A DNA stretch of 32,777 nt from Desulfobacteraceae bacterium (GCA_030613055.1 JAUWMR010000050.1:1-32777), one strand, 5' to 3'; shown: positions 2,962 to 32,777, counted from the first letter of the stretch. The notes: generated from the sequence alone by a model not told the origin. Program-made: numbers and translations.

Positions 2962-3911
2962 ATGAAACTCCTTTTGTATCAGTTGTTATTCCTGTCTTCA
3001 ATGAAGAGGCAAACCTTGATGAACTCATAAGGCGATGTCTTAATTCATGCTCAGGGATTGGCGAACCGTTTGAGATTATCCTTGTAGATGATGGAAGCAC
3101 TGACAGTTCAGCGGAAAAAATTACAGAGGCAGCCGAACAGCATGCGGGCAAGGTCATCGGGGTTATCCTAAACAGAAACTACGGCCAGCACGCTGCTGTC
3201 ATGGCAGGCCTTTTCGAGTCAAAGGGGGATATTGTCGTTACGCTCGACGCTGACCTCCAGAACCCACCCGAGGAAATACCGAGACTGGTAAAAAGGGCAG
3301 GGGAGGGATTTGACGTGGTCGGCAGCGTCCGGGTTCAGAGACGGGACTCTCTTTTTAGAAGGGTTGCCTCTTTTATGGTCAATAAGGCCGTGCAGCGTGC
3401 TACAGGTATTAATATGCACGATTACGGGTGCATGCTTCGTGCCTATCGCAGGAACATTGTGGATGCCATGCTCAAGTGTCATGAACGGAGCACATTTATC
3501 CCTATCCTTGCCAACAGCTTTGCCCGCAATACAACGGAAATCGAGGTGCGACATGAAGAACGTTTGGCCGGCCCATCAAAGTACGGGTTATGGAAATTGG
3601 TTAAGCTCCAGTTTGATCTTCTTACAAGCATGACGACTTTTCCGCTCCGTCTTCTGAGCGTGCTTGGCGGGATCATCTCGGCGGTGGGGATAGGCTTCGG
3701 GCTGTTCCTGCTTGTCATGAGGCTGATTCGCGGTCCCGAATGGGCCGCAGAGGGGGTCTTTACTCTCTTTGCTATTCTTTTCATTTTTATTGGTGCGCAG
3801 TTTATTGGCATGGGCCTGTTAGGGGAATATATCGGGCGGATTTATCACGATGTCAGGGCGAGGCCCCGCTATTTTGTTCAGCAGGTTGTGGGCAGGAACA
3901 GGCAGGCGTGA
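2958..3911 (+). CDS. arnC: Undecaprenyl-phosphate Ara4FN transferase ArnC (GT2 family)
   Basis: This 317-residue membrane-anchored glycosyltransferase (family about 320) transfers formylated Ara4N from UDP to undecaprenyl phosphate on the inner face of the cytoplasmic membrane. The GT2 catalytic domain occupies about residues 5-215, with [11 protein letters not shown] at the start, the nucleotide-binding ILVDDGSTD, and the metal-binding DAD (Asp97, Asp99) in [12 protein letters not shown]. Two hydrophobic helices follow, at about 228-255 and 265-290, with the [11 protein letters not shown] signature common to polyprenyl-phosphate glycosyltransferases. The start overlaps the arnB stop. Related DPM-like enzymes use glucose or mannose, but the operon context makes ArnC the best call. 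Confidence 0.92.
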
Positions 3912-3995
3912 ACCCGGAACTTTGAACCTGTGTAGTTGCGATATTTATAAACTCGTGGATTGAGACAAAACCATGTATTTATAACATCAGACCTC

Positions 3996-4156
3996 GTTAA
4001 GTGGTTGAATAGTTAAGTGGTTAAATTCACGGCCATATTTGTTTTTAGTCCCGCCGTGGCGGGAGACATTCATCATTTTGATATTTGTAACTTACTGAAA
4101 TTATAAAAATTATTTTCCAACTCAACCACTCAACCACTTAACCACTCAACTATTTG
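3996..4156. repeat. Inverted array of AACCACT-type heptads around a GC hairpin
   Basis: The left arm (3996-4027) carries repeated TTAAGTGGTT units, and the right arm (4119-4156) carries repeated CAACCACT / TAACCACT units on the opposite strand, so the arms can pair over about 30 nt imperfectly. Between them lies the palindrome TCCCGCC-GT-GGCGGGA at 4049-4064. The element fills most of the 276-bp gap between arnC and arnA and has no coding potential. It shares its architecture (short tandem units, inverted copy about 90-100 nt away) with the element at 13986-14119. Confidence 0.65.
4078..4107 (+). promoter_or_regulatory. Candidate sigma70 promoter for arnA
   Basis: TTGATA (4078-4083) and TATAAA (4102-4107) are separated by 18 nt, each one base off consensus. 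The predicted start lies about 75 nt before the arnA ATG. It sits between the arms of the heptad repeat, so the right arm would be transcribed into the leader. Prediction by eye only. Confidence 0.4.
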
Positions 4157-4187
4157 ACTATATCTGAACATAGAGAGAGTGTTTTAA

Positions 4188-6185
4188 ATGAAAACTATTG
4201 TTTTGGCCTATCATAATATTGGTTGCATCGGCATTGAAGCACTGTTGAGAAACGGGTTCGAGATCTCTGCGGTCTTTACCTACAGAGATGATCCCGGGGA
4301 GACTGTCTGGTTTGATTCCGTTGCGGAGCTTGCCGCATCCCGCGGCATCAAGGTGTTTTCACCGGAGGATATCAACCATCCGATCTGGGTGAAAAAAATC
4401 AGCGAGCTTGCGCCGGACATTATTTTTTCATTTTATTACCGCGATATGGTCGGATCATCCATTTTGGATATTCCGCCATCGGGATGCCTTAACCTGCACG
4501 GTTCCCTTCTTCCGGAGTATCGAGGCCGATGCCCGATAAACTGGGTGCTTGTCAAAGGCGAGAAAGAAACCGGTGTTACGCTCCATTACATGACGCCACG
4601 CCCGGATGATGGCGATATTGTATGTCAGAAAAAAATCAGCATATCGGATGATGACACAGTAAGATCCCTGTATAAAAAAGCGGAAAAAGCGTGTGCAAAT
4701 ATGCTTGATGAAATCCTGCCGCAAATAAAGGATGGTACAGCGCCGCGTGATCCCCAGGATCACTCAAAGGCGACCTACTTTGGAGGACGCAGCCCGGAGG
4801 ACGGCGAGATAAACTGGATGCGGGATGCCGCTGAAGTCAGAAATCTGGTCAGGGCAGTAACCCGTCCTTATCCCGGGGCGTTTAGCTATGTTGGCGACAG
4901 GAAATGCCTCCTCTGGGAGGTGACGCAATTGCCGGATGGCGGCAAAGGATCAGGGCCCGGCACTATCATTTCAATAGATCCGCTGATAGTTGAATGTGGG
5001 AAGGACGCTGTGCGGGTGGATTTTGGGCAGCCCGAGGAAGGCGTATACATGAGCGGCATTCAACTTGCTAATGAACTCGGTCTACTTGAGGGCATGACCT
5101 TTGGCGCATGTGTAAGCAGGCAGTTAGAGACAGCAAGAAAGAAGCGCATCCTTATTTTAGGTGTTGACGGTTTTATAGGTAATGCCCTTGTCGAACGACT
5201 CCTTGAGAGCGAAAAATACGAAGTACACGGTATGGACCTGCGCTCAAACGGTATCAAAAGACTCTTAGACCGCCCTGGATTCCATTTTGACGAAGGTGAT
5301 ATTGCCATTCACCGGGAGTGGATAGAATACCACATCAGGAAATGTGATATTGTAATTCCTCTGGTGGCCATCGCGACGCCTGTCGAATATACGAGAAACC
5401 CTCTCAGGGTTTTTGAGCTTGATTTTGAGGAGAACCTGAGGATTGTCCGGTATTGTGTGAAATACAAAAAGCGGATTGTTTTCCCGTCCACATCCGAGGT
5501 GTATGGAATGTGCGATGAGGAGCTGTTTGATGAAGACAACTCCAAACTCGTCTTAGGGCCTATCCGGATGCAGCGATGGATTTACTCATGCAGCAAGCAG
5601 TTGTTAGACAGGGTAATCTGGGCCTATGGAGAGCAGGAGGGCCTCAGGTTTACGTTATTCAGGCCTTTCAACTGGATAGGACCGAGACTGGATAGTCTCG
5701 CGTCAGCGCGCATCGGGAGTTCGCGAGCCATCACTCAACTGATCCTGAATCTCGCGGAGGGGACCCCTATCCAGCTTATTGATGGCGGAGATCAGAAACG
5801 TTGTTTCACGGATGTGGAAGACGGGGTGGAATGCCTTTGCCGGATTATCGAAAACAGGGGCGGTGTATGCGACGGAAGGATAATCAATATCGGAAATCCG
5901 GATAATGAAGTTAGTATCAAAGAATTAGCCGAGATGTTAGTGGAAAAATTTCAAGAGCACCCCTTAAAGTCAAAGTTTCCTCCTTTTGCAGGGTTCCGCG
6001 AGTTAGAAAGCGTTTCATATTATGGCGCCGGGTATCAGGATGTTCAACATAGAAAGCCGCTTATCAGGAATGCCCGAAATCTGTTGAACTGGACCCCTAA
6101 CGTAGTGCTTGAGCAATCCGTTGAGAAAACGCTTGATTTCTTTCTGAGGGAAGCCATCGAGCGTGGAGACTTCAGTTATATGTAA
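4188..6185 (+). CDS. arnA: Bifunctional ArnA: UDP-Ara4N formyltransferase / UDP-glucuronate decarboxylase
   Basis: This 665-residue protein (E. coli ArnA is about 660) carries both ArnA domains. The N-terminal formyltransferase (about 1-305) has Asn102 and His104 in [10 protein letters not shown] and Asp140 in the PDDGDI motif, the same catalytic numbering as the E. coli enzyme; it N-formylates UDP-Ara4N using 10-formyl-THF. The C-terminal extended SDR (about 315-660) has the NAD-binding [15 protein letters not shown], and a YSCSK catalytic Tyr/Lys, and oxidatively decarboxylates UDP-glucuronate to UDP-4-keto-pentose. [11 protein letters not shown] and [11 protein letters not shown] are typical of this domain. 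Both are cytosolic. The gene is separated from arnC by a repeat but has its own candidate promoter. No missing residues were noted. Confidence 0.95.
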
Positions 6186-6512
6186 CATTTTAGCTCTTTG
6201 AAAAAATCGGTCATCTGTTGTAGGGACATGGGGATCTCTTTTTTAAAAGCCGCATATGCTTACATCATTACATGGCACGGCAGTTAGGCCTTACAATTCA
6301 AGCAACGGACAGCCCCATACGGGAATCTTCATGATTAAGACCGCCATCTCTGCCTGCTCAGAGCCAATGGTCAAAGCCCAGCCTCCGGCCCATAGGGCCT
6401 ACGCCCCGGTGGGGGGGCGTGTTGTTAGCATTAGGTGAATTTGTGATGCGGCTTTTAAAAAAGAGCCCCCCATGTCCCGGTATTGTTTTCAAAGGGCTAA
6501 ACTATTACAATT
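6181..6512. repeat. 330-bp inverted-repeat mobile-like element between arnA and arnD
   Basis: The left arm (6181-6255) and right arm (6446-6512) are imperfect inverted repeats. The inner 33 nt (6223-6255 against 6446-6478) differ at about two positions and share CTCTTTTTTAAAAGCCGCAT. The outer parts share TTTAGCnCTTTGAAAA but the left has an extra 12 or so nt. The left end overlaps the arnA stop codon. The 190-bp core has a GC hairpin (ACGCCCC at 6401-6407 with GGGGCGT at 6414-6420) and no credible gene; a 60-codon ORF at 6256-6438 has no recognisable features. The last 55 bp recur exactly at 13192-13246. This accounts for the 385-bp gene-free stretch 6186-6570; the remaining 58 bp are the arnD leader. 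Confidence 0.75.
6483..6511 (+). promoter_or_regulatory. Candidate outward promoter inside the repeat, reading into arnD
   Basis: TTGTTT (6483-6488) and TACAAT (6506-6511) are 17 nt apart; the -10 has 5/6 consensus bases and the -35 has 3/6. Both lie inside the 55-bp repeated end, so the copy upstream of the tetR gene carries the same pair at 13217-13245. A start near 6518 would give arnD a leader of about 50 nt. Prediction by eye only. Confidence 0.3.
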
Positions 6513-6570
6513 ATATTGATTGACTCCGGACATAACCTCCCAAATTCCCGGTTCCAGCAGGAATAATTAC

Positions 6571-7485
6571 ATGAAAATAGGTTTAAGAATTGATGTTGAT
6601 ACCTTGAGGGGGACCAAATACGGTGTGCCGAATTTGTGCAGGCTATTTGCTTCTCATTCGATCACGGCATCGTTCTTTTTTTCTTTAGGCCCGGATAATA
6701 TGGGCCGGCATCTGTGGCGATTAGCCCGTCCCTCCTTTATCTGGAAAATGCTGAGATCGAGGGCTTCAAGCCTCTATGGATGGAATATACTATTAAGGGG
6801 TACGTTATGGCCGGGACCTGTTATAGGAGAAAAATCAGGCAGTATTATTCGTTCCGTGTCTGATGCCGGCCACGAAGTGGGACTCCATGCATGGGATCAT
6901 CACGCGTGGCAGCGACATATTGACAGGATGGACGGAGATGACATACACCGTTCTCTAAAATTAGGCGTGGACCTGCTTTCGCGGATTATTGGCAGAAGGC
7001 CGGCTTGTTCGGCTGTTCCCGGCTGGAAATGCAACGATCTCGTGTTGCTTGAAAAAGCCAGGTTTCCATTTGATTATAACAGCGACTGCAGGGGAACAAG
7101 TATATTCAGACCGGTTATTAACGGAAAGGAATTAGAGCAGCCCCAGATCCCTGTTACACTACCAACCTACGATGAGGTAATCGGGCATAACGGCATATCC
7201 AATAATAACTACAACGATTATATATTCTCCCTGCTTAAAACGGACGGGCTCAATGTCCTGACAATTCATGCAGAGGTTGAGGGTATTGTCTGTATAGAGA
7301 TGTTTGAGCGCTTCGTAAAGCGTGCTCAATCAAAAGGGGCATCATTTATCCCCCTAAAGAAATTCCTCACGCAGGCCCAGCCCATTGGCCGTTCGTCCAT
7401 TTCCCCTGAGAAAATTCCCGGCCGCGACGGCTGGGTCGCATGCCAGGCAGAAGCCATGACCCATGATAAGGAAATGGAATCATGA
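6571..7485 (+). CDS. arnD: Ara4FN-phosphoundecaprenol deformylase ArnD (polysaccharide deacetylase fold)
   Basis: The ATG at 6571 is preferred over an in-frame TTG at 6520. It has AGGA 8 nt upstream and gives the conserved N-terminus MKIGLRIDVDTLRGT, about 304 residues against about 296 in E. coli. The NodB/polysaccharide-deacetylase fold is shown by Asp8 and Asp10 of RIDVD, the GHEVGLHAWDHHAWQ metal-ligand histidine segment, and the PGWKCND region. ArnD removes the formyl group from Ara4FN-phosphoundecaprenol, making the transfer irreversible. The stop overlaps the arnT start (ATGA). The gene is preceded by a repeat carrying a candidate promoter, so it may be transcribed separately from arnBCA. 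Confidence 0.9.
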   Translation: MKIGLRIDVDTLRGTKYGVPNLCRLFASHSITASFFFSLGPDNMGRHLWRLARPSFIWKMLRSRASSLYGWNILLRGTLWPGPVIGEKSGSIIRSVSDAGHEVGLHAWDHHAWQRHIDRMDGDDIHRSLKLGVDLLSRIIGRRPACSAVPGWKCNDLVLLEKARFPFDYNSDCRGTSIFRPVINGKELEQPQIPVTLPTYDEVIGHNGISNNNYNDYIFSLLKTDGLNVLTIHAEVEGIVCIEMFERFVKRAQSKGASFIPLKKFLTQAQPIGRSSISPEKIPGRDGWVACQAEAMTHDKEMES

Positions 7486-9125
7486 AAAAGTCCTCCATTG
7501 CGGTCATAGGGCTCTTTGTTCTTCTTTACATTATCCCGCTCGGAGCGCGACCTGTTATTTCCCCTGACGAGGTTCGATACGCTGAAATTCCAAGGGAGAT
7601 GATCGCCACAGGCGATTGGGTAGTGCCCCGCCTAAACGGGCTCCGGTATTTTGAAAAACCTGTAATGGGTTACTGGCTCAACGCGGCAGCCATGATGCTG
7701 TTTGGGGAAAATGCGTTTGCCATCCGTTTGCCGTCAGCCTTAGCCGTTGGAATCTCTGCGCTGATGGTTTTCTTTCTGGTTCGACGGTTCGCAGGCGGAT
7801 ACCTGACGGGAATTATTGCAGCAACGGCTCTTTTTACCTGCCTGGAAGTTTTTGCTCTTGGGGTTTTTTGCGTCTTGGACAGCTCACTGGCCATGTTTGT
7901 GACCGTGGCAATGGTATTTTTCTTTTTTGCGCATATGGCCGAACGTTCCGGAAGAAGAACCCTTTTCCTTGCGTTTTTCGGGGCCTTTTGCGGCTTTGCA
8001 TTTCTTACAAAGGGCTTTTTAGCTTTTGCCGTACCGGCGGTTACCATCGTGCCCTTTTTGATCTGGGAGGGCCGTGTAAAAGACCTATTCAGGGATTTCT
8101 GGATCGCAATTTTAGCTGCCTTTCTTGTTTGTCTACCGTGGTCTGTTATGATCCATCTTCGCGAAAATGATTTCTGGAACTATTTTTTCTGGATTGAACA
8201 TATAAAAAGATTTATGTCCGATAATGCCCAGCATTCACAGCCGTTCTGGTTCTTTATTCCCGTAATAGCAGTGGGCGCGCTTCCGTGGACCGTTTTTATG
8301 CCTGCCGCGATTTCAGGGATGAGGGAGACACGCCTTGAGAAACCATTTGCCCGGTTTGCCATCTGCTGGTTCCTGTTCCCCCTTCTTTTTTTCTCTTTGT
8401 CCCAGGGAAAACTGGCCACGTACATCCTGCCCTGCTTTCCTCCCCTTGTGATTGTCATGACAGTCGGGCTGCAAAAGTATCTGGAAGGAAATAAAAAACT
8501 GGCATTCATTAGTGGAGCGTTTTTTCTTTCCATATTGACAGGTATTTTAGGGATATTCATTCTAATAACCCAAATGACAGGTTACTGGGGATTAGGGATA
8601 TATAGCCGTCCGGAAACATGGAAGTGGATCCTCGGTGCGGCAGGACTTCTGACAATGTCGTTTCTTTTTTTCTTAGCGGGTAAGGCAAATAACGTGCAAA
8701 AAAAAATATTATTCTGCACCATGGCCCCGATGCTGTTTATGTTCAGCGGGCATTTTATTTTGCCTGAGAAGATCAACGCGGCAAGATCACCTGGAACGTT
8801 TCTCATGCGCCATGCGCAAAAAGTGCATCCTGGCACGCCTCTTGTTTCGGATGACCACCTGACATACGATGTGTGCTGGTATTATAAGCGGAATAACGTA
8901 TTTCTGGTTTACAGCGGCGGCGAATTTGCATATGGCATAAGACGTGATGACTCTAAACACCGGCTTTTGCAGCGTGAAGAGTTCGAAGGGTTTGTAAAAA
9001 AACATACGGGAAAGAAACGGGTGACACTCGTTACCGATATTAAGCGTTTTGAGTGGTATAAATCCATTTTAGGCAGGCCGGCTTTTGTGTACACTGATGG
9101 CATTTTCGTATTTGCACAGTATTAG
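7482..9125 (+). CDS. arnT: Lipid A Ara4N transferase ArnT (GT-C, PMT-like)
   Basis: This 547-residue inner-membrane enzyme (E. coli ArnT about 550) moves Ara4N from undecaprenyl phosphate to lipid A phosphates on the periplasmic side, lowering envelope negative charge. The first periplasmic loop carries the GT-C acidic motif SPDEVRYAEIPREM (Asp29, Glu30). LPRLNGLRYFEKPVMGYW-like family signatures follow at about 50-70, then at least ten hydrophobic helices to about residue 420. The soluble periplasmic C-terminus covers about 430-547. The gene is coupled to arnD by an ATGA overlap. Fit to ArnT is strong; other PMT-like transferases are less likely here. Confidence 0.92.
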   Translation: MKKSSIAVIGLFVLLYIIPLGARPVISPDEVRYAEIPREMIATGDWVVPRLNGLRYFEKPVMGYWLNAAAMMLFGENAFAIRLPSALAVGISALMVFFLVRRFAGGYLTGIIAATALFTCLEVFALGVFCVLDSSLAMFVTVAMVFFFFAHMAERSGRRTLFLAFFGAFCGFAFLTKGFLAFAVPAVTIVPFLIWEGRVKDLFRDFWIAILAAFLVCLPWSVMIHLRENDFWNYFFWIEHIKRFMSDNAQHSQPFWFFIPVIAVGALPWTVFMPAAISGMRETRLEKPFARFAICWFLFPLLFFSLSQGKLATYILPCFPPLVIVMTVGLQKYLEGNKKLAFISGAFFLSILTGILGIFILITQMTGYWGLGIYSRPETWKWILGAAGLLTMSFLFFLAGKANNVQKKILFCTMAPMLFMFSGHFILPEKINAARSPGTFLMRHAQKVHPGTPLVSDDHLTYDVCWYYKRNNVFLVYSGGEFAYGIRRDDSKHRLLQREEFEGFVKKHTGKKRVTLVTDIKRFEWYKSILGRPAFVYTDGIFVFAQY

Positions 9126-21361: not shown

Positions 21362-21559
21362 ATGCCCACTAACCTATCTATAGATCAGGAATTATTACAA
21401 AAAGCATTAGAAATAAGCGGGCTAAGAACTAAAAAAGATACAGTTAACTTAGCTCTAAAAGAATTAATTAATAGACACAAGCAATTGGAAATAATAAGTC
21501 TTTTCGGAAAGATGGACCCAGATCCTGACTATGATTACAAAAAAGGAAGAAGTAGGTGA
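21362..21559 (+). CDS. vapB: VapB-type antitoxin
   Basis: This 65-residue protein begins MPTNLSIDQELLQKALEISG, then TKKDTVNLALKELINRHKQ, the ribbon-helix-helix-like DNA-binding part of the VapB (DUF2191-like) family. The acidic, proline-containing tail (MDPDPDYDYKKGRSR) is the expected toxin-wrapping segment. The stop overlaps the vapC start (GTGA). It should inhibit VapC and autorepress the pair. Confidence 0.85.
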   Translation: MPTNLSIDQELLQKALEISGLRTKKDTVNLALKELINRHKQLEIISLFGKMDPDPDYDYKKGRSR

Positions 21560-21954
21560 AAGTTCTTGTTGATACTCCCATTTGGTCTTATGCTTTACGC
21601 GCCCGCAATAATGAATATCAATATGAGATAGATCAACTTAAGTCTCTTATCAGAGACCAAAGGGCTCTCATCATTGGCCCTATTCGCCAAGAAATTTTAT
21701 CTGGTTATAGTGATCTACGCAAATTTAGAATACTAAAAGAAAAACTCTCCTTTTTTGAAAACACTCCCATTCAAGATATTGATTATGAATTGGCTGCCGA
21801 GTTATCCAACCAGTGTAGGAAAAAAGGAGTTCAAGGCTCTCATATTGATTTCCTTATATGTGCTGTTGCAAAAAGAATTGAGGTTCCGATCTTTACCACA
21901 GATAATGATTTCCCCGCTTACCAGAAGATTATTTCGATAAAACTCTATGAGTGA
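21556..21954 (+). CDS. vapC: VapC-type PIN-domain ribonuclease toxin
   Basis: This 132-residue PIN domain starts at GTG 21556, overlapping the vapB stop. The conserved acidic residues are visible: Asp6 (VLVDTPIW), Glu46 (RQEILSG), Asp98 (HIDFLICAVA) and Asp116 (FTTDNDF). Free VapC cleaves RNA, in known cases often tRNA or rRNA. The gene is intact, unlike the PIN remnant at 20298-20402. Its codon use is A+T-richer than the metabolic genes to the left, in keeping with transfer. Confidence 0.88.
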   Translation: MKVLVDTPIWSYALRARNNEYQYEIDQLKSLIRDQRALIIGPIRQEILSGYSDLRKFRILKEKLSFFENTPIQDIDYELAAELSNQCRKKGVQGSHIDFLICAVAKRIEVPIFTTDNDFPAYQKIISIKLYE

Positions 21955-22140: not shown

Positions 22141-22485
22141 ATGAAATTAAAAAGGAAAAAACCAAAAATCAAACAAGTCATGTCCACTTGTTCTTGGTGT
22201 GGCTTAAAGATAAGGAATGAAGGGCCAATTTATGCATTGGGGTGTAAAAAGCGACCTGAAGTTGACATCTCAAAGTATGAAAGCAAAGCTATGCCGATAA
22301 AGATATCTACCATAGACAAAACAATATGGTGTATAGTCCCTCCCGCCGATTCTGATGCACGAAAGGAGGGTAATGATTTTATGTTTACATTATGCTCGGA
22401 AGAATGCGGAAATCAACTTAAAGAAACATTGGATACTGAAAAAGAACTTGGTGAATTGATTCTTTCTGCAAAGCATATCTGTTGA
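22141..22485 (+). CDS. Hypothetical small protein with zinc-finger-like cysteine pairs
   Basis: I do not recognise this 114-residue protein. It starts with a very basic stretch (MKLKRKKPKIKQ) and has CSWCGLKI at residues 17-24 and LCSEECG near residues 83-89. That is a CxxC...CxxxC pattern that could bind one zinc. The middle part (PIKISTIDKTIWCIVPPADSD) has no known motif. A weak AAAGGA lies about 20 nt upstream and AACAGG about 10 nt upstream. It sits between vapBC and hsdR and has A+T-rich codons, so it belongs to the accessory block. A DNA- or RNA-associated role is possible but unsupported. Confidence 0.55.
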   Translation: MKLKRKKPKIKQVMSTCSWCGLKIRNEGPIYALGCKKRPEVDISKYESKAMPIKISTIDKTIWCIVPPADSDARKEGNDFMFTLCSEECGNQLKETLDTEKELGELILSAKHIC

Positions 22486-22538: not shown

Positions 22539-22607
22539 TCTCGTGCAGTAAATTAACAAGAGTCAACGGCAGACTTGCCCCCTACTAATTTAAAAGGTCT
22601 CTTCACT

Positions 22608-25430
22608 ATGGTATTTACCGAGGCAGAAACCAGGGCCAAACTCATTGACAAGAAGCTCCGTCTTGCGGGCTGGAATGTCCGTGACCCCTCGCAGGTCATC
22701 CAGGAACTGGACATTGATTTATCTGAGGCGGGTGTCCCCAAGATGGCCGAGCCTGAAACGCCTTACAGTGGCCACCAGTTCGCCGACTACGGTCTCCTGC
22801 TCCACGTAAAGCCCATTGCCGTAGTCGAGGCCAAGAAAACGTCCAAGGACGCGGCCCTTGGACAGGAACAAGCTCTCCAGTACGCCCAGAACCTCCAAAA
22901 GATATACAAAGGCAGGATACCATTTATTTTTTACACCAATGGCTACGACATCTACTGTTGGGAGTCTGAATTTTACCCGCCTGTCAAGATCCATGGTTTC
23001 CCGACCCGTGACGATCTTGAGTGGATGGACCAGCGCCGGGAAAACCGCAAACCGCTCTCCGTCGAGTTGATCAACACGAACATCGTGGATCGAGACTATC
23101 AGATCGCTGCGATCCGCAGTATCCTGGAAAACATCGAGGCCAGGCACCGCAAGTTCCTGCTCGTCATGGCCACTGGCACGGGAAAGACCCGGACTGCCAT
23201 AGCCCTGCTCGACGTGCTTATGCGTGCCCGCTGGGCCAAGCGGGTGCTTTTCCTGGTGGACCGGATAGCATTACGCGACCAGGCCCTGGACGCATTCAAG
23301 GAATACACACCGTCTGAACCAAGGTGGCCTCAGCAGGGCGAGAAAGCATTTTCAAAGGACCGCCGGGTCTACGTCACAACCTATCCGACAATGCTTAACC
23401 TCATCCATAATGGTACAACCCCTGAAACCTGGATCTCACCCCATTTCTTCGATGTGGTTATAGCTGACGAGAGCCACAGGAGCATCTATAATATCTACTT
23501 GCAGGTTCTTGACTATTTCAATGCGATCAAGCTGGGACTGACGGCCACGCCAAAGGACCAAATCGATCACGATACATTCGAGCTCTTTAACTGCGAGACA
23601 CACGACCCCACATTCGCATACAACTACGAGGAAGCCTTGGAGCACGACCCTCCCTATCTCTGCGATTTCGAGGTGCTAAAGGTCCGCTCCAAGTTCCAGC
23701 TCGAAGGCATTAAGGGGGGCACACTGCCCCCGGCTGTCCAGAAGAAGCTCATTGCCGAAGGCAAGGACATAGAGGATATCGATTTCGAGGGCACCGATTT
23801 GGAGAGGAAAGTCACCAATGCCGGGACCAATGCACTCATAGTTCGGGAGTTTATGGAGGAGTGCATCAAGGACTCTTCGGGCACCCTCCCCGGCAAGAGC
23901 ATCTTCTTTGCCATATCCAAGGGCCATGCCCGTAGGCTACAGGACCTGTTCGACAAACTTTACCCGGAGCAAAAGGGCAGACTTGCTCGGGTTCTCGTCT
24001 CTGGTGACCGTTTTGTTTATGGCAAGGGTGGTCTGCTCGACCAATTCAAGAACCAGGATATGCCCCGTGTTGCCATTTCGGTTGATTTGCTGGATACGGG
24101 CGTGGATATCCATGAAGTGGTTAATCTGGTCTTTGCCAAGCCGGTTTACTCCTATGTCAAGTTCTGGCAGATGATAGGCCGCGGCACCCGCGTACTTGAC
24201 CCCGATCCTTCAAAGCGGAAGGCATGGTGTCCTAAAAAGGATAAGTTTCTCATTATTGATTGCTGGGGAAATTTTGAATACTTTAAGATGAAGCCAAAAG
24301 GCCGGGAGCCCGGCCAGCAGGAACCCCTTCCGGTAAAGCTTTTCAAGGCCCGCCTCGACAAGCTGGAAGTGGCATTAGGTATGGGTCGCAATGATGTGTC
24401 CGGGTCTGTTAAGGCTGACCTTCGTAAGGATCTTAATGCCCTTCCCAAGAATAACGTGCTGGTTTCGGACAAAGAGGCCGAACTGGCAGTGGTCGAACCC
24501 GACCAGTTCTGGGATCAACTCAAGGCAAAAGATTTAGGATTCCTGCGCTCTGTGATCGCTTCCATACTCCGGGCGCGCTCAGATGCGGACTTCAAGGCCA
24601 TGCGTTTTGAGACCGAGGTGGTGGAATTAGGAACGGCCATTCTCTCAGAGAATATGGATGCCTTTGAGGGCATCAAAGAGAGCATTTTGGCCCAGATCTC
24701 GGAGTTGCCCCTCACCGTCAACCTTGTGGCCAAAGAGAGGGAACTCATCGAGGATATCCAGCAAGCTCACTGGTGGGCAACGCCGACCGAAGGGAAGCTG
24801 AACTCTCTTGTTGAACGTCTTGCCCCTTTGATGCGCTTCCGCCAGAGGCGAACGGACCCTATGATGCGGCTCGATATCGCAGATCTTATGGCTGTAAAAG
24901 AGTGGATCGAATTCGGACCTGAACACGAGCGAATGACTACCTCGGCCTACCGCGAGAAGGTCGAGGAATATATCCGCTGGCTTGTTGAAGAAAACAGGGC
25001 GCTTCAGAAATTGCAGGCAGGTGAGGAAATATCGGAATCAGAGATACGGGATCTGGCATACCTCCTTGAGGCTCAGACCCTGCACATCACAGAGGATAGG
25101 CTCCGCAAAGTCTACGACCACAAGACGGCCCGCTTCATCCAGTTCATGCGGCACATTTTGGGACTGGAAAAGTTAGAGTCCTGGCCAGAGACGGTCACAA
25201 GCGCATTCGACGATTTCATTGCGCGTCACACCACTTTCTCGGCACTTCAGATCCGGTTCCTACAAACACTAAAGACCTTCATCCTCCAGACAGGTAAGGT
25301 CGAGAGGGAAAACCTTATTGCCCAGCCCTTTACCAATCTTCACCCTCAAGGAATCCGGGGTCTGTTTGAGCCTTCTCAAATCCAGGAAATCATGACTTTT
25401 GTGGAAGAAATAGGGCAACAGGCTGCTTAA
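22608..25430 (+). CDS. hsdR: Type I restriction enzyme R subunit HsdR (EcoEI-like)
   Basis: The ATG at 22608 (MVFTEAETRAKLIDKKL) is preferred over TTG 22575; AAAAGG lies upstream. The 940-residue motor/nuclease subunit has a PD-(D/E)XK nuclease near the N-terminus (Asp60, Glu74, Lys76 in VVEAKK). The SF2 translocase follows, with Walker A ATGTGKT (188-194), DESH (287-290), TATPKD and QMIGRGTR. The C-terminal region after about 760 (PLMRFRQRRTDPMMRLD and on) resembles the EcoEI R C-terminal domain that docks on the methylase core. HsdR translocates and cuts DNA with unmethylated target sites. Length is nearer the EcoEI/EcoAI (type IB) branch than EcoKI. No broken motifs were seen. Confidence 0.93.
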   Translation: MVFTEAETRAKLIDKKLRLAGWNVRDPSQVIQELDIDLSEAGVPKMAEPETPYSGHQFADYGLLLHVKPIAVVEAKKTSKDAALGQEQALQYAQNLQKIYKGRIPFIFYTNGYDIYCWESEFYPPVKIHGFPTRDDLEWMDQRRENRKPLSVELINTNIVDRDYQIAAIRSILENIEARHRKFLLVMATGTGKTRTAIALLDVLMRARWAKRVLFLVDRIALRDQALDAFKEYTPSEPRWPQQGEKAFSKDRRVYVTTYPTMLNLIHNGTTPETWISPHFFDVVIADESHRSIYNIYLQVLDYFNAIKLGLTATPKDQIDHDTFELFNCETHDPTFAYNYEEALEHDPPYLCDFEVLKVRSKFQLEGIKGGTLPPAVQKKLIAEGKDIEDIDFEGTDLERKVTNAGTNALIVREFMEECIKDSSGTLPGKSIFFAISKGHARRLQDLFDKLYPEQKGRLARVLVSGDRFVYGKGGLLDQFKNQDMPRVAISVDLLDTGVDIHEVVNLVFAKPVYSYVKFWQMIGRGTRVLDPDPSKRKAWCPKKDKFLIIDCWGNFEYFKMKPKGREPGQQEPLPVKLFKARLDKLEVALGMGRNDVSGSVKADLRKDLNALPKNNVLVSDKEAELAVVEPDQFWDQLKAKDLGFLRSVIASILRARSDADFKAMRFETEVVELGTAILSENMDAFEGIKESILAQISELPLTVNLVAKERELIEDIQQAHWWATPTEGKLNSLVERLAPLMRFRQRRTDPMMRLDIADLMAVKEWIEFGPEHERMTTSAYREKVEEYIRWLVEENRALQKLQAGEEISESEIRDLAYLLEAQTLHITEDRLRKVYDHKTARFIQFMRHILGLEKLESWPETVTSAFDDFIARHTTFSALQIRFLQTLKTFILQTGKVERENLIAQPFTNLHPQGIRGLFEPSQIQEIMTFVEEIGQQAA

Positions 25431-25462
25431 ATAGGGTAATATTTGATTGACATTACCCTATT
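25430..25462. promoter_or_regulatory. Perfect 11-bp inverted repeat between hsdR and hsdM
   Basis: AATAGGGTAAT (25430-25440) and ATTACCCTATT (25452-25462) form a perfect inverted repeat with an 11-nt spacer, starting at the last base of the hsdR stop codon. A TTGACA (25447-25452) lies within it, but no good -10 follows at 17 nt. The spacing of the half-sites, one helical turn plus, suits a dimeric repressor; a weak transcript-end hairpin is the alternative. Confidence 0.5.
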
Positions 25463-25489
25463 AATCGCTAATCACTGAGAAGGAGAATC

Positions 25490-27046
25490 ATGTTAACCAC
25501 AACCCTTCGATCTAAAATAGACTCCCTCTGGGACAAATTCTGGTCGGGCGGCATTGCCAACCCACTGACTGCCATGGAGCAGATCAGCTACCTGCTTTTC
25601 ATGCGCCGGCTTGACGCAACAGACCGCAAACGATTGGAAGATGCAGAGTGGCTCAAACAATCCTATACGTCGATCTTCGATGGAAGTTACACTGCACCGG
25701 ATAGAAGAGACTATGATAAAGGCGAGCTTCGATGGAGCCATTTCCGGCACCTGCCCGGCGACGATATGCTTACCCATGTCCGGGACAGGGTCTTTCCCTT
25801 TATCAAGAACCTTGGCGGTGAAGACCATGCATTCTCCCAATATATGCATGACGCAGTCTTTATCATTCCCAAGGCGTCTCTGCTTGTGGAGGCCATAGGA
25901 ATCATCGATGACATCTACACCGAGATTGAACGGGAACGCTTAGACAACGGCCAGACCTTCCACGACACCCAGGGCGACCTCTACGAGTACCTGCTCTCCG
26001 AGATCAGCACTGCCGGTAAAAACGGCCAGTTTCGTACACCCCGGCACATCATCCAGATGATGTGCGCCCTGGTAGATCCAAAATTAGGCGACGAGGTCTG
26101 CGATCCTGCCTGCGGCACTGGTGGCTTTTTGTTAGGGGCCTATCAAAATATACTCACACGACATACCAGCCCGGAGCTTAGGCAGATAGATGAAAACGGC
26201 ATGGAGCGGGGCCTTGTTGGAGACCGGCTTACCGATGAGAGGCAGTGGAAGGTTTTGAGAGAACGGAGTTTTTACGGGTTTGACTTTGATACAACCATGG
26301 TACGAATCGGGCTCATGAACCTGATCCTCCACGGTATTGACCATCCCAACTTAGGTTACAAGGATACCCTATCCAAGAAATACGATGAGAAAGACCGCTA
26401 TGACGTGGTCCTGGCAAATCCACCCTTCAAGGGCAGTATTGATAAAGGGGATATCAACGAAGACCTCAAGCTCAAGACTACAAAGACAGAGCTTCTTTTT
26501 GTCAACCGCATGATCAACCTGCTCCGCATCGGCGGAAGGGCAGGGGTCATAGTGCCGGACGGCGTGCTATTCGGCTCAAGCAATGCCCACCGCAACCTGC
26601 GCGAGATGCTAATCGAGGAATGCGAGCTTCAGGGAGTGGTATCCATGCCCTCGGGTGTGTTCAAGCCTTACGCCGGGGTAAGCACGTCAGTGCTTGTCTT
26701 TGTCAAAGGCGGCCAGACCGAACACGTCTGGTTCTACGATATGCAGGCCGATGGCTACTCGTTAGACGATAAGCGCGACAAGATCGAAGAAAACGACATC
26801 CCCGATGTTATAAAGCAATGGAACCAACGCAATCCGGCTAAGGAAAAAGACCGCAAGGCCAGGGCGTTCTTTGTTCCGGCCCAGGAAATCCGCGACAATA
26901 AATACGACCTCTCTATTAACCGTTACAAAGAAATCCAATACGAAGAAGTCGAATACGATCCACCCAAGGTGATTCTAAAAAGGCTCCGGGAGTTGGAGGA
27001 TGAGATCGGCAAGGACCTCGATGAATTGCAGGGGATGTTGGGATGA
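25490..27046 (+). CDS. hsdM: Type I restriction-modification methylase subunit HsdM
   Basis: This 518-residue N6-adenine methyltransferase starts at ATG 25490, with AAGGAG 4 nt upstream. A helical N-terminal HsdM domain (about 1-150) is followed by the SAM-binding motif DPACGTGGFLLGA (Asp205 on) and the catalytic NPPF (Asn310) in VVLANPPFKGS. GQFRTPRHIIQMM just before motif I is typical of HsdM. Two HsdM bind one HsdS to methylate the target; with HsdR they form the restriction complex. The stop overlaps the hsdS start (ATGA). Confidence 0.95.
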   Translation: MLTTTLRSKIDSLWDKFWSGGIANPLTAMEQISYLLFMRRLDATDRKRLEDAEWLKQSYTSIFDGSYTAPDRRDYDKGELRWSHFRHLPGDDMLTHVRDRVFPFIKNLGGEDHAFSQYMHDAVFIIPKASLLVEAIGIIDDIYTEIERERLDNGQTFHDTQGDLYEYLLSEISTAGKNGQFRTPRHIIQMMCALVDPKLGDEVCDPACGTGGFLLGAYQNILTRHTSPELRQIDENGMERGLVGDRLTDERQWKVLRERSFYGFDFDTTMVRIGLMNLILHGIDHPNLGYKDTLSKKYDEKDRYDVVLANPPFKGSIDKGDINEDLKLKTTKTELLFVNRMINLLRIGGRAGVIVPDGVLFGSSNAHRNLREMLIEECELQGVVSMPSGVFKPYAGVSTSVLVFVKGGQTEHVWFYDMQADGYSLDDKRDKIEENDIPDVIKQWNQRNPAKEKDRKARAFFVPAQEIRDNKYDLSINRYKEIQYEEVEYDPPKVILKRLRELEDEIGKDLDELQGMLG

Positions 27047-28278
27047 ATAGTCAAGTTCCAATCTCATCTGTTGCGAAGATTTTCAATGGTAAAACCCCTT
27101 CAAAGGCCCAAAAGCGAAGTACCGGTCATCCTGTGCTGAAAATCAAGGATGTGTCCGAACAGGGAGAATTCCTTGGAATTTTCGACTCGTTCGTAGATAA
27201 CAATTTTGCAACCAGGTATTTAGAGAAACAGATTTGCCTTGGTGATATACTAATTCTTAATGCTGCTCATAACGCCGATTATGTTGGTTCAAAAATCTAT
27301 CTCATCGAGGAAACCGTAATTGGATCAATTGCCACAGGGGAGTGGCTCATTATTAGGCCCGACCCAAACACATTAGATTCAAAATACCTTTTCTTCTGGC
27401 TCATTGGTCAAAAGACACGTTACATACTTCGCCAGCTCGTAAAGGGAATCCATCTTTACCCGCGTGACGTAGGGCGTCTCAAGGTGACTGTCTTACGTCT
27501 CGCCGAACAACGCCGTATTGCAGCCATCCTCGACAAGGCCGATGCCATCCGGCGAAAGCGGCAGGAGGCGATCCGGCTGATGGATGAGTTTCTCCGCTCG
27601 GCATTTCTTGAGATAGTTGGACCCGGTGCTTCAGATTATGGGAAATGGCCTGATTATACTATTGAAGGCCTTGCCTTGGACAAGAAAAACTCTATGAGAA
27701 CAGGACCATTCGGGAGCGACCTAAGACACTCAGAGTTTGTTGATAAGGGAATCGCTGTTCTCGGCATCGATAATGCTGTTAAAAACTATTTTGATTGGGG
27801 TGAAAGGCGTTTCATCGCGCCGGAGAAATACGAAAAACTCAAAAGATACAAGATTTTTCCTAGTGATGTCATTATCACGATCATGGGAACAACAGGCCGT
27901 TCTGCCGTTATACCAGATGACATTCCTCTTGCCATTACTACAAAACACCTTGCAGCGATTACTTTGAATAGGGAATTGGCACATCCAGAGTTCATTGCGT
28001 ATGCCATTCATGCCCACCCTGAGATACTCCATCAAATAGAAAAAGCACAAAGAGGTGCAATAATGAATGGCCTCAATTTGACATTAATAAAGGAATTGCG
28101 CTTGCGTGTACCTCCTATGGCCGTACAGGAGCGTTTTGCATCAATTGCCCGAAAAGCCAGAAAGACACGCGATAAACTTACAAAGGAGAATAAAGTTGAG
28201 GTGAGCAACCTCTTCAACTCCCTCGTCCAACGTGCCTTCCGAGGGGAACTTGTTCCTACCGAGGCTCAACTGGCCTAG
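27043..28278 (+). CDS. hsdS: Type I restriction-modification specificity subunit HsdS
   Basis: This 411-residue protein has two target-recognition domains (about 1-145 and 200-350). Each is followed by a conserved helical spacer: LAEQRRIAAILDKADAIRRK at 153-172, and QERFASIARKARKTRDKL near 360-378. The two-TRD, two-spacer plan predicts a bipartite target with a non-specific gap; the actual bases cannot be predicted here. Both TRDs and spacers look complete. The A+T-rich composition of the TRDs compared with hsdM is usual, as TRDs are exchanged between strains. Confidence 0.9.
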   Translation: MNSQVPISSVAKIFNGKTPSKAQKRSTGHPVLKIKDVSEQGEFLGIFDSFVDNNFATRYLEKQICLGDILILNAAHNADYVGSKIYLIEETVIGSIATGEWLIIRPDPNTLDSKYLFFWLIGQKTRYILRQLVKGIHLYPRDVGRLKVTVLRLAEQRRIAAILDKADAIRRKRQEAIRLMDEFLRSAFLEIVGPGASDYGKWPDYTIEGLALDKKNSMRTGPFGSDLRHSEFVDKGIAVLGIDNAVKNYFDWGERRFIAPEKYEKLKRYKIFPSDVIITIMGTTGRSAVIPDDIPLAITTKHLAAITLNRELAHPEFIAYAIHAHPEILHQIEKAQRGAIMNGLNLTLIKELRLRVPPMAVQERFASIARKARKTRDKLTKENKVEVSNLFNSLVQRAFRGELVPTEAQLA

Positions 28279-28361: not shown

Positions 28362-31300
28362 ATGACTGATCAGCAAAAGCAACAGAGCAACCCATTCTCC
28401 ACAGGAGATGGAGGCGGAAATTTCGAGACTCGTGTACAAACAGCGTTTACGGTTCTCATGCTAACAGGGGGAGTAGCTCCTTGTTTGCCATCTTGGCCTA
28501 TCATCAAAATCAAGCTTCAAGGGAAGTATGCTGGCTTTGATACCGATGACTGTATCGTCTTTGTAAAGGATGCCAACACCAAGAGAGAATGCAAGCTGCT
28601 TGCTCAAATAAAACATTCTGTGAGCATCACTGAAAGCAATCCGGTATTTTCTGAAGTCCTTCTTGCAGCATGGAAGGATTACAACAATCCAAACATATTT
28701 TCCGAAGGCATTGATGCAATCGCCTTAATAACTGGCCCGCTGAGCGCAACCGATATTAACCATGTCCGCCCCCTTCTGGAGTGGGCACGCCATTGTGCTG
28801 ATGCGAATGAGTTCATTTCAAAGGTAAACACCGCAAAATTCAGCAGTGACATCAAACGGAAAAAACTAAGTGCATTCAAAGTCCACCTAAAATCAGCCAA
28901 TAGAGGTACTGATGTTACTGATAAAATATTGTGGCGCTTTCTTAAGAGCTTCCATCTCATTGGTTATGATTTGGATTCAGCAGCTGGCAGTACTCTTGCT
29001 CTGCTCCAAGCACTGATTTTGCAGAGATCCAACGAGCGGGAATCTGACGCCGTTTGGTCACAGATACTTACTGCCGTTCAAAGTGCTAATCAGAGTGCCG
29101 GGACAATAACGCTCGACACCATTCCAGAGAGTATTCGTTCTTGCTTCAACACTTCTCTGAACCGAAATTGGGGTGCAGATCTTCAAAAGTTATATGACCA
29201 CAGCGATTACATCCTCAGCGGAATTCGAACTGACATTGCAGGAGTACATATCAAGCGTCATGATGTTTTTTGTCAGTTATTGGACCTTTCAGAAACCTCC
29301 AACTTTGTCCTATTATCAGGAGGACGGGGCTGTGGCAAATCCAGTATTATCAGAGAATTTGCGCATTTTATAGAAAACCGTCACCCTGTCTTTTGCCTTC
29401 GTACAGAGGACCTAAACGAATCACATTTGGACAGAGCATTCTCCGCTATGGGAATACAAAGCTCTCTCAGCGATCTTGGGGCCGGTTTTGCCATGATGTC
29501 AAAGAGGTTTCTGTTGGTGGAGTCTCTGGAAAAACTTTTTGAGCTTCAGAACACAGGTGCGTTCATAGACTTGATTCACTTTTTGAAAAAAAATCCGGGA
29601 TGGACGGTTATCGCCAGTGGGCGTGATTATGCCTATCAGCAGATAACATTTCACTATCTACAACCGCACGGGGTCAATTGGTCCTCCTTAATGATTCCAG
29701 AATTTAATGCTGATGATATCGGTATCCTATGCAGTCAAATTAAGGCATTGAAGCCTCTTGCAGCCAACGACGCAATAAGGAAACTCCTTAAAATTCCATT
29801 TTTTGCTGACTTGGCTGCTCGAGTTGCAGCAGCAGGAACACAGTTTTCTAAAAGTGACGATGAAACGGCCTTCCGTACGGCAGTTTGGCGAGATGTAATC
29901 TCCAAGGAACAAGAGCGAGCGAACGGTTTGCCTTTGAAGCGAAAGCGGGCTTTCATCGACATTGCGGTGAAACGCGCAAAACTTATGGCGTATGGCGTGT
30001 CCGAGAACGAGTTCGATTCTGATGCGCTACTCAGGCTTGAAGAAGATAACTTGATTCAGCGCAATCCAACGAAAGGGTTGGTCAGCCCTGCGAATGACGT
30101 CCTCGAAGATTGGGCGCTGGAGGCTTATATTGAGGAAGCATTCCAACAGAATACAGGTGATGTACCACATTTCCTGGACGCGGTTGGCTCTGAACCCGCT
30201 ATGAACCGTGCCTTTCGCCTGTGGCTTCATCACATATTGAGAAGCGAACATACTGAATGTGATGCAATAAACCTTGTGCTATCCGTTCTAGGAGATACAA
30301 CTCTGCAAGCTCATTTGCAGGATGAAACGATTTCGGCGGTTCTGATGGGAGATAAGCCGCTTGAATTTCTACATAATCTGCGTGATAAGCTTTTCGAAAA
30401 TAATTGGGAACTCCTTAAGCGTTTCTGTTTTATCTTACGAATATCCTGCAAAGCCCCAGATCATGCCCTAATACGACAGATAACCGGTGTAGATGACAAG
30501 CTTAACAAAGCCTCAGAAGCCTTGTTCTTAAGGCCTTATGGGAAAGCTTGGGAAGCAATTATCCTGTTTCTGCATGAAAACATAACCTTCATTTCAGAAG
30601 AGCTTCTACCCCACCTATCAGCAGTGCTTGATGAATGGGCGTCCCTGATACATATAGAAAAGGAGCTTCCTTCACCGGCACGCGAAGCGGGCCTGATAGC
30701 GCTTCACTTGCTCGAAATAGTCAAGGACAACTACCGCGATGATGGCAACAGAAAGAAATTGCTTGGGATAATCATCAAGGTTGTTCCCGCTATCAAGCCT
30801 GAATTCCTCAAACTTCTTGAACAAGATATTTTCCGCAAAGGTGACCACTCTGGCAAACATCGTCCAGGCTATGCCCGTCAATTTCTCCCAATGGCGCTTG
30901 TCAACTTTGAAACAGTCTTTCTTTGCAAATACGTCCCTGACTTGGTCATTAAGCTGGCATGGCAGGAATGGCTGATAGATGATGCGGATGAGCGTCGATT
31001 TTGGGGAGGGCATCGGGATGTCGAAGATTGCTTCGGATTGCATGAGCACAGGGAGGGTACAGACTTTTTCCCCGCCAGTGGCGCTAAAGGACCATTCTCT
31101 CACTTTTTGCGGTATGATCCCCGAAAAGGACTGGATTTCATCATCGAACTGTGCAATCGAACGGCCGAGAAATATGCGCACTCTATACTGGACTCCAAAG
31201 AAAAGGAGGCTTTTTTTCATACCAGCTTTAAAGAAGGATCTTTTACGGTCGAGATACCGTTACATGATGGTACACGTATAAAGCAGTATTGCTCTCATCG

Positions 31301-32654
31301 ACTTTGGTCCGGTTATCGGGGTACTGTGGTTCTCCCTTATCTGCTTCAGTCTGCACTAATGGCTTTGGAAAACTGGCTGATTGCCATGACAGACCAATCT
31401 GAAAAGACTGATACAGTGGAGTGGGTCATCGACCACATTCTACGAAACAGTAATTCCGTGATGCCTACAGCTGTAATTGCCTCAGTAGCCACTGGCTTTC
31501 CTGAAAAATTGGGTAAAGCATCGATCCCGTTGCTGCGAACACCTGATCTATACCACTGGGATTTGATCCGATCTACTCAAGAGATGGGAGGACGTGAAGC
31601 AATCTGGTTTGGCCCATTATGCCACGATCTAATGCGAGAGTTCTATGCGGAAGAAAGGCGTACGTCAGCATTGCGCCCATGGCGGAGGGAGCATCTGGAG
31701 AGTTTGGCAATTCGGCTTCAATTGACAGATTTGCGTGATGAGGTCTTCAAAATACTGGATGTGTTCCGGGCAAATATTCCCAAGTCAGACATTAATGGAG
31801 AAGATGATGAACGATGGCGTTTCCGCCTTCATCGAATGGATATCAGAGGTTGGAAACCGCAGGAAGATAAGGAGAACAATCGCATCTTATTGATGCCCAA
31901 AGACCTTGAGCCTGACTTAAAGGAAATCCATAATAACACTCAGGAAGACCAATTACTCACAAATCGTTTTATTTCCTTATTCCTGTGGAGCGAGCACACG
32001 TTCAAAGGCGAACAGCTTGAGCGCGAGTATTACACTGACTGGCAAAAAGCGCTCAAGGAGGCCAAGTCTCTGCTGGAATTGTTGAAAAATGGCGATGTCA
32101 GCGAATTGGCACGAATGCAATTCGGTGGCATTGTCAAAGCGGCGGCAATTTTTCTCCGGGATCACAACGCAGAGCTGAACGAAAAAGATGTGGAGTGGTG
32201 TGCTTTGCTTCTAACTGAGTCTATCTTTTTAAACTGCAACACAGATGACATGTTAGCAGTTGCAGATAAAACCGGTCATGACGGTGCACCTGCGGCCGCC
32301 GAAGTTATTCCCATCCTTTTAGATTTCACTGGAGATAAGAATGAGCAGAGCCAGATAAAACAAATTATCGCTGTTGCACTGACACATGCAAATGACACTG
32401 TCCGAACAGCAGCGGCGCAAGGAGTTCAAAAACACCTGTGGCAGAGAGAGCCTGAGTTTGCGCAGGTATGTATTGAAGGCGCGCTTGAGTATTCGCGGTT
32501 ATGCTGGGAGGAGATCCAAAATCGACGAAATGCTCAATCGTTGCCGTATCCTAAAGACCACGACGAATCCAGTGAATTAGAAACACCGGAATCTTGGTTG
32601 CCCCGTTTTCGTGAACGCATTGTTGCCGGTGAAGTAAACCCTGTAGTTGCATAA
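28362..32654 (+). CDS. Putative antiphage nuclease-STAND-like ATPase (Avs/NLR-like), 1430 aa
   Basis: No exact family is recognised. The N-terminal part (about 10-190) looks like a DUF4297/Cap4-type PD-(D/E)XK nuclease: GGGNFETRVQ (Glu22), GFDTDD (Asp62/63) and LLAQIKHS (Gln82-x-Lys84). A P-loop ATPase follows, with Walker A GGRGCGKS at 320-327, an unusual Walker B-like FLLVES (Glu387) where Asp is expected, and a sensor-like ASGRDY (Arg421). A winged-helix-like stretch covers about 470-600. Residues about 620-1430 are helix-rich without clear motifs, perhaps HEAT/TPR-like sensing repeats. Nuclease + STAND ATPase + long helical sensor is the plan of Avs and related NLR-like defence proteins, and the gene lies 83 bp after hsdS. 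GAGG lies 8 nt before the ATG. Defence function is inference. Confidence 0.65.
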   Translation: MTDQQKQQSNPFSTGDGGGNFETRVQTAFTVLMLTGGVAPCLPSWPIIKIKLQGKYAGFDTDDCIVFVKDANTKRECKLLAQIKHSVSITESNPVFSEVLLAAWKDYNNPNIFSEGIDAIALITGPLSATDINHVRPLLEWARHCADANEFISKVNTAKFSSDIKRKKLSAFKVHLKSANRGTDVTDKILWRFLKSFHLIGYDLDSAAGSTLALLQALILQRSNERESDAVWSQILTAVQSANQSAGTITLDTIPESIRSCFNTSLNRNWGADLQKLYDHSDYILSGIRTDIAGVHIKRHDVFCQLLDLSETSNFVLLSGGRGCGKSSIIREFAHFIENRHPVFCLRTEDLNESHLDRAFSAMGIQSSLSDLGAGFAMMSKRFLLVESLEKLFELQNTGAFIDLIHFLKKNPGWTVIASGRDYAYQQITFHYLQPHGVNWSSLMIPEFNADDIGILCSQIKALKPLAANDAIRKLLKIPFFADLAARVAAAGTQFSKSDDETAFRTAVWRDVISKEQERANGLPLKRKRAFIDIAVKRAKLMAYGVSENEFDSDALLRLEEDNLIQRNPTKGLVSPANDVLEDWALEAYIEEAFQQNTGDVPHFLDAVGSEPAMNRAFRLWLHHILRSEHTECDAINLVLSVLGDTTLQAHLQDETISAVLMGDKPLEFLHNLRDKLFENNWELLKRFCFILRISCKAPDHALIRQITGVDDKLNKASEALFLRPYGKAWEAIILFLHENITFISEELLPHLSAVLDEWASLIHIEKELPSPAREAGLIALHLLEIVKDNYRDDGNRKKLLGIIIKVVPAIKPEFLKLLEQDIFRKGDHSGKHRPGYARQFLPMALVNFETVFLCKYVPDLVIKLAWQEWLIDDADERRFWGGHRDVEDCFGLHEHREGTDFFPASGAKGPFSHFLRYDPRKGLDFIIELCNRTAEKYAHSILDSKEKEAFFHTSFKEGSFTVEIPLHDGTRIKQYCSHRLWSGYRGTVVLPYLLQSALMALENWLIAMTDQSEKTDTVEWVIDHILRNSNSVMPTAVIASVATGFPEKLGKASIPLLRTPDLYHWDLIRSTQEMGGREAIWFGPLCHDLMREFYAEERRTSALRPWRREHLESLAIRLQLTDLRDEVFKILDVFRANIPKSDINGEDDERWRFRLHRMDIRGWKPQEDKENNRILLMPKDLEPDLKEIHNNTQEDQLLTNRFISLFLWSEHTFKGEQLEREYYTDWQKALKEAKSLLELLKNGDVSELARMQFGGIVKAAAIFLRDHNAELNEKDVEWCALLLTESIFLNCNTDDMLAVADKTGHDGAPAAAEVIPILLDFTGDKNEQSQIKQIIAVALTHANDTVRTAAAQGVQKHLWQREPEFAQVCIEGALEYSRLCWEEIQNRRNAQSLPYPKDHDESSELETPESWLPRFRERIVAGEVNPVVA

Positions 32655-32757
32655 AAAATCGGTATTTTACGAAGTAAAGGGCTTGCGGGACCCTATGGAT
32701 AAAGGTTATAATTGAGTTTGACAAACAAAATTAACCCAATCCAGGAGGTCACCGCAA

Positions 32758-32777
32758 GTGAAATCTAGTAAATCACA
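32758..32777 (+). CDS. Start of a gene cut by the right edge (partial)
   Basis: GTG at 32758, with AGGAGG (32743-32748) 9 nt upstream, opens a frame reading VKSSKS before the window ends. The upstream 100 bp have no ORF. Six codons are too few to name the product; a transposase is possible in such a block, but nothing here proves it. Confidence 0.4.

Follow-up and report, generated by a model that had tools for sequence, protein, structure and literature searches.

In Escherichia coli, Avs proteins act alone. The nuclease effectors of Avs1-4 kill cells by cutting both phage and host genomes (PMC12931631), and the TPR domain of the E. coli Avs4 protein, EcAvs4, binds the phage portal (PMC12847820). 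We examined a 32,777-nucleotide stretch of DNA from a Desulfobacteraceae bacterium (GCA_030613055.1, JAUWMR010000050.1:1-32777; hereafter the window), which contains an open reading frame (ORF) at positions 28362-32654 that is predicted to encode a protein 1430 aa long. This ORF and all other window features given with coordinates in the avs4-like gene, the neighboring restriction genes, and the insertion sequence below are on the + strand. An earlier note on this DNA had described the product as an unassigned protein with a nuclease-like N-terminus, an ATPase, and a long helical C-terminus, and had suggested a stand-alone antiphage sensor-effector, possibly of a new clade. The architecture and the antiphage type are supported by our results, and the "unassigned" protein is resolved as a broken copy of an immune receptor whose kind is known and whose effector has been exchanged. 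In full, it is very likely an Avs4-lineage STAND (NLR-like) antiphage receptor in which the Mrr-type nuclease has been replaced by a Cap4/DUF4297-type nuclease, and which has been truncated by an insertion sequence (IS) and is probably inactive in this genome. The ORF is not a chance one because homologues cover nearly its whole length, and the protein has only one match in its own genome.

The region downstream of the nuclease head has a clear relationship to Avs4 (AVAST type 4; NCBIfam NF041815; EcAvs4, PDB 8dgf), with which both the STAND ATPase and the whole helical sensor are homologous and co-linear. The NCBIfam Avs4 profile matched the window protein with an E-value of 3.9e-177 (591 bits, profile positions 148-1253 of 1579), the PADLOC Avs4 profile (PDLC02169) matched at 5.9e-153, both over residues ~260-1379, and phmmer aligned the protein with the solved EcAvs4 at 3.1e-69. 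Pfam returned only weak ATPase matches. These AAA_16/nSTAND matches and the alignment to 8dgf place a STAND NTPase and winged-helix region at residues ~290-600 (29229-30161), followed by an Avs4-type helical sensor at residues 601-1425 (30162-32636) that is recognized by the Avs4 profiles and the 8dgf alignment and is cut short. The ~800 helical residues reported earlier as lacking any familiar motif therefore do have a match, since the region after residue ~600 is homologous to the Avs4 sensor; judged by profile and alignment, the C-terminus is a sensor of the Avs4 lineage rather than an unassigned domain.

Features of STAND/NLR-like proteins are present in the ATPase. The Walker A motif GGRGCGKS occupies residues 320-327 (29319-29342), exactly as claimed, and the Walker-B-like strand, FLLVES, spans residues 383-388 (29508-29525) and ends in Glu387-Ser388, also as described. 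This glutamate aligns with an aspartate of EcAvs4 (LVESLEKL in the window protein and VVDSAEKL in EcAvs4). It is kept in the close clade, being Glu in the five closest full-length relatives, and gives way to Asp in E. coli Avs4 and in proteins that are more distant, so that in the sequences aligned the substitution is a change at the level of the clade. Together with the match of the C-terminus to Avs4 and the tree described below, this does not support the new clade that had been proposed as possible. An MHD-like motif (HDxxEDW) reads NDVLEDWALE in the window protein, with Asn578 (30093-30095) at a position that is His in 8/8 aligned relatives. The H578N change is compatible with relaxed constraint, and one substitution proves nothing.

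We found that the N-terminus differs from that of E. coli Avs4, which carries an Mrr-type nuclease, and it does not align to the Avs4 profile. Pfam gave nothing reliable for this head, therefore its fold was taken from structure prediction. The AlphaFold2 model of residues 1-272 (predicted local distance difference test score 88.5, predicted template modeling score 0.86) has an alpha-beta-beta-beta-alpha-beta core as in restriction endonucleases, comprised of helix 18-35, strands 46-52, 64-69, and 76-84, helix 94-107, and strand 119-124. The closest solved folds are the Avs3 nuclease (Z 14.0), LmuA (13.4), Cap4 (12.9), and the HerA-DUF partner nuclease (12.6), well above ordinary restriction enzymes, which score Z about 6. 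Three catalytic motifs lie where they had been placed before and are invariant in 45 homologues: Glu22 in helix 1 (28425-28427), Asp62-Asp63 (28545-28550), and Gln82-x-Lys84 (28605-28613). Thus, by its predicted fold, the N-terminus (residues 1-262, 28362-29147) is a PD-(D/E)XK nuclease of the Cap4/DUF4297 type, as the earlier note had guessed. An N-terminus lacking such a fold would have refuted the earlier reading; the model shows the opposite. The likeness to the Avs3, Cap4, LmuA, and HerA-associated DUF4297 domains consists of the PD-(D/E)XK fold and the E..DD..QxK active site; their sequences are too distant from the window head to give useful Pfam, PADLOC, or PDB profile matches, and a PDB profile search with the head returned chance matches only. 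Unlike these nucleases, the window head is joined to an Avs4 sensor. A hidden Markov model of the window-type nuclease matched the window clade and did not match E. coli Avs4.

We identified intact relatives using an alignment of four N-termini as the query; a single-sequence contig scan with the whole window protein had found nothing, and phage records contained no relative. Five full-length relatives were aligned, from Candidatus Brocadiaceae (L036, 1716 aa, 73% identity to the window protein), Paenibacillus (L037, 1709 aa, 53%), Clostridia (L039, 1720 aa, 47%), Bacillus (L075, 1585 aa, 39%), and Gallionella (L104, 1676 aa, 28%). The L036 protein matches the Avs4 profile at positions 147-1579 of 1579 and 8dgf up to its last residue. 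In a tree of the STAND-plus-sensor regions of 19 sequences, the window protein, these five relatives, and proteins from Hymenobacter (L018), Haliscomenobacter (L123), Calothrix (L125), and E. coli Avs4 (L124, L126) formed one 100/100 set. The Bacillus gene, from Bacillus canaveralius, directly follows what looks by eye like a Tn7-type transposition module (L075:1-9963).

The same comparisons bear on whether the protein belongs to another NLR-like group, such as bNACHT or Avs2/3, or to a new clade that merely resembles Avs4. The Cap4-type head, which is nearest to the nuclease of Avs3, and a score under the Avs4 equivalog cut-off would fit such an assignment. However, Avs4 is the sole strong PADLOC match (the next best is 0.013), the 100/100 set unites the body with that of E. 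coli Avs4, and the intact relatives are co-linear with Avs4 to the end. PADLOC gave no match of the window protein to bNACHT or Avs1-3, groups that the 19-sequence tree samples narrowly. We consider membership of another group or of a new clade very improbable and retain the Avs4-lineage assignment.

The members of the 100/100 set carry different heads: Cap4-type, Mrr-type, trypsin-like (L123), or none recognized (L125), the trypsin-like and Mrr calls being made from reading the sequences and from a profile scan of L123. The L123 gene, on a plasmid of Haliscomenobacter hydrossis (L123:670-6673), encodes an Avs4 body (PADLOC Avs4 5.4e-157) with a fused trypsin-like head, and an overlapping gene upstream encodes an MBL-fold protein that matches LmuA, RTasMBL, and Avs1a models. 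L123 and the window protein thus have the Avs4 body in common and differ in the effector, which in L123 is a fused protease plus a nuclease encoded by a separate upstream gene. Nuclease-protease pairs have been described for AVAST, Lamassu, Hachiman, and DRT systems (PMC12799240); judging from these profile matches, L123 is a pair of that kind on an Avs4 body. Naturally occurring Avs4 bodies with an Mrr head, a Cap4-type head, a trypsin-like head plus an MBL nuclease, or no recognized head would allow a test of whether specificity is set by the sensor regardless of which effector is attached.

In contrast to its relatives, which have a complete sensor, the window copy is without the last ~295 residues. 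The avs4-like gene ends in the left end of a multicopy IS (CCCTGTAGTTGCATAAA..., 32639-32777), which runs off the contig and is identical at three other contig ends (C10, C38, and C59). The right end of the element recurs at three contig ends (C46, C31, and C45), and the two ends are imperfect inverted repeats (CCCTGTAGTTGCATAAA / CCCTAACGTTGCATAAA). The element, which breaks the assembly, has ends described as CCCT...GTTGCATAAA and 4-bp TAAA/TTAA-like target duplications. Just before the left end in the window is the sequence TAAA (32635-32638), a 4-bp target-site duplication with its second copy on contig C46, so that TAAA is found on both sides of the element, and both flanks share the same codon phase. 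The missing C-terminus of ~295 residues is at the end of C46, where it adjoins the other IS end and has 67% identity to L036. The interior of the IS was not found in the assembled contigs; the start of the transposase was seen only at contig ends. The repeated ends, inverted repeats, TAAA duplication, and matching phase show that the IS interrupts codon 1426 of a native protein of about 1720 residues. Since the sequence from 32639 onward is IS, codons 1426-1430 and the stop codon are wholly or partly derived from it, and the gene as found (28362-32654) is a truncated ORF with 1425 native codons and a tail of ~5 IS-derived residues. Its length of 1430 aa is not native and its 3' end is artificial. 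An ORF at a contig end can thus mimic a new clade once an IS has clipped its sensor. Here the two halves of the gene are described separately and the intact relatives stand in for the native gene.

The window copy lacks roughly one sixth of the protein, entirely from the sensor, and is probably an inactive pseudogene. It could be argued that the 1430 aa protein still functions as a receptor whose sensor has been shortened or retuned, given that the frame is open and that, apart from H578N, its nuclease and ATPase motifs are preserved. We consider this very unlikely. The five aligned full-length relatives extend well beyond the break (1585-1720 aa), in those that were scanned the match runs through to the end of the Avs4 profile, the ORF stops exactly at the IS boundary, and the loss of the MHD-like histidine fits relaxed constraint. 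The stand-alone sensor-effector proposed earlier thus stands as an antiphage architecture, but a working copy is unlikely in this genome because the IS splits the gene and ~295 sensor residues are gone. Another explanation is that the IS is present in only part of the population, or reflects the assembly, and that an intact allele is kept. This is a 97-contig draft, and short-read assemblies typically break into separate contigs at repeats. Yet the window protein has the single match in the genome noted above, and the same TAAA at both junctions with TAAA-/TTAA-like sites around other copies is the pattern of a real insertion. A retained intact allele is therefore improbable, and we favor interruption of the only copy.

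Some observations weigh against an IS-inactivated receptor of the Avs4 lineage. Neither the window protein (591 bits) nor the intact L036 protein (727 bits) reaches the NCBIfam equivalog cut-off of 1500 bits; therefore, we call the gene avs4-like, meaning that the lineage is shared and not that it is an NCBIfam equivalog. Because the score is below this cut-off and identity to E. coli Avs4 is only ~24-25%, ligand specificity is not confidently transferable. The IS junctions were read at contig ends of a draft assembly rather than in a closed genome, and the truncated product might keep some activity.

The homology suggests how the intact relatives (~1710-1720 aa) would act. The C-terminal helical sensor most likely binds a conserved structural protein of the phage, with homology to EcAvs4 pointing to the portal. 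The STAND ATPase would then oligomerize the protein, and the clustered Cap4-type nucleases would cut double-stranded DNA, aborting infection. The weakest step is recognition of the portal, a trait that the window clade probably shares, given its homology to E. coli Avs4 at an identity of about 25%. In the present genome, the IS in codon 1426 has cut off the last ~295 residues, which lie on contig C46, from the remainder of the receptor.

The nuclease head is not confined to Avs4 bodies. A search with the head returned 69 genome loci, 52 of which encode a protein of 1150-1215 aa, as well as 7 contigs from viral collections. This ~1180 aa family spans many bacterial phyla and also occurs in archaea (L067, L098), and its N-terminal nuclease is ~50% identical to the window head; examples among loci L036-L111 are L040:10001-13546, L081:9995-13537, and L090:9995-13477. 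Representatives had no useful match in Pfam, PADLOC, or NCBIfam, and a PDB profile search with the family gave chance matches only. A structural model has the same nuclease head, a small stretch resembling a winged helix-turn-helix, and a long helical solenoid, without a recognizable NTPase. A fold search with this model recovered the Cap4-type head; beyond it, the matches were generic HEAT/ARM solenoids at Z < 9, which point to no specific kinship. Thus, the family has the head in common with the window protein and differs from it in having no NTPase that we could see, in having a different helical-repeat body, and in sometimes being inside type I restriction-modification (RM) or BREX operons. 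An overlap of the family gene with an hsdS-like gene is seen at five loci (L070, L081, L082, L094, and L098), and at L070 and L081 there is a further overlap with hsdR. At three others (L077, L085, and L090) the gene and the end of pglX overlap, with pglZ and brxL following downstream, a BREX context that was checked by profile for L090 and by similarity to L090 for L077 and L085. BREX loci are known, as a general theme, to carry auxiliary PD-(D/E)XK nucleases (PMC12839542). We found no database name for the family, and it is not named in the literature available to us. These ~1180 aa proteins are possibly an unnamed partner of RM and BREX. Tentatively, and with somewhat less than even confidence, we suggest that the head belongs to an uncatalogued and very widespread defense effector whose main form is the ~1180 aa nuclease-HEAT protein lacking an ATPase. 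This form could ride in type I RM (hsdS-X-hsdR) and BREX (pglX-X-...-pglZ) operons, where it would serve as a backup triggered by failure of restriction. In the Avs4 lineage the head, or in other cases a protease-plus-pro-nuclease pair, would take the place of Mrr.

Other proteins also carry the head. On two Burkholderia plasmids (L020:6902-11260 and L022:6893-11395) it is fused to TPR and PIN domains of the TPR-GreAB-C-PIN type, and at L028:6364-9561 (- strand) a window-type head is found on an Avs2-like NACHT body (PADLOC Avs2 8.5e-26). A distant copy of the head occurs in a 561 aa protein encoded on the pAt plasmid of Agrobacterium tumefaciens Ach5 (L023:3156-8677), near two genes for trypsin-like serine proteases.

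Directly upstream of the avs4-like gene, at 22575-28278, is the type I RM system that had been reported as its neighbor. It is comprised of hsdR, encoding the restriction subunit (22575-25430; PADLOC REase_I 2.4e-157), hsdM (25490-27046; MTase_I 6.1e-183), and hsdS (27043-28278; Specificity_I 2.8e-89). This gene arrangement raises the question of whether the protein acts as an accessory of the RM system and not alone. The avs4-like gene starts 83 bp past the end of hsdS on the same strand, which has no terminator-like site in the gap, the L036 copy begins 62 bp past a type IIG RM gene, and the genes for the related ~1180 aa proteins sit inside hsdS-X-hsdR and BREX operons. Against this, the stretches examined around the five full-length relatives (L036, L037, L039, L075, and L104) contain no homologue of the window hsdR, hsdM, or hsdS, and, as stated above, Avs proteins in E. 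coli need no partner. An accessory role is unlikely. Just upstream of the RM operon are an ORF of 114 aa with no family (22141-22485) and a gene for a VapC-family PIN toxin (21556-21954; NF047959 above cut-off, PF01850). Farther upstream, at 1810-9125, are genes for 4-amino-4-deoxy-L-arabinose (L-Ara4N) modification of lipid A, predicted to encode an aminotransferase, a transferase, ArnA, and an ArnT-like protein.

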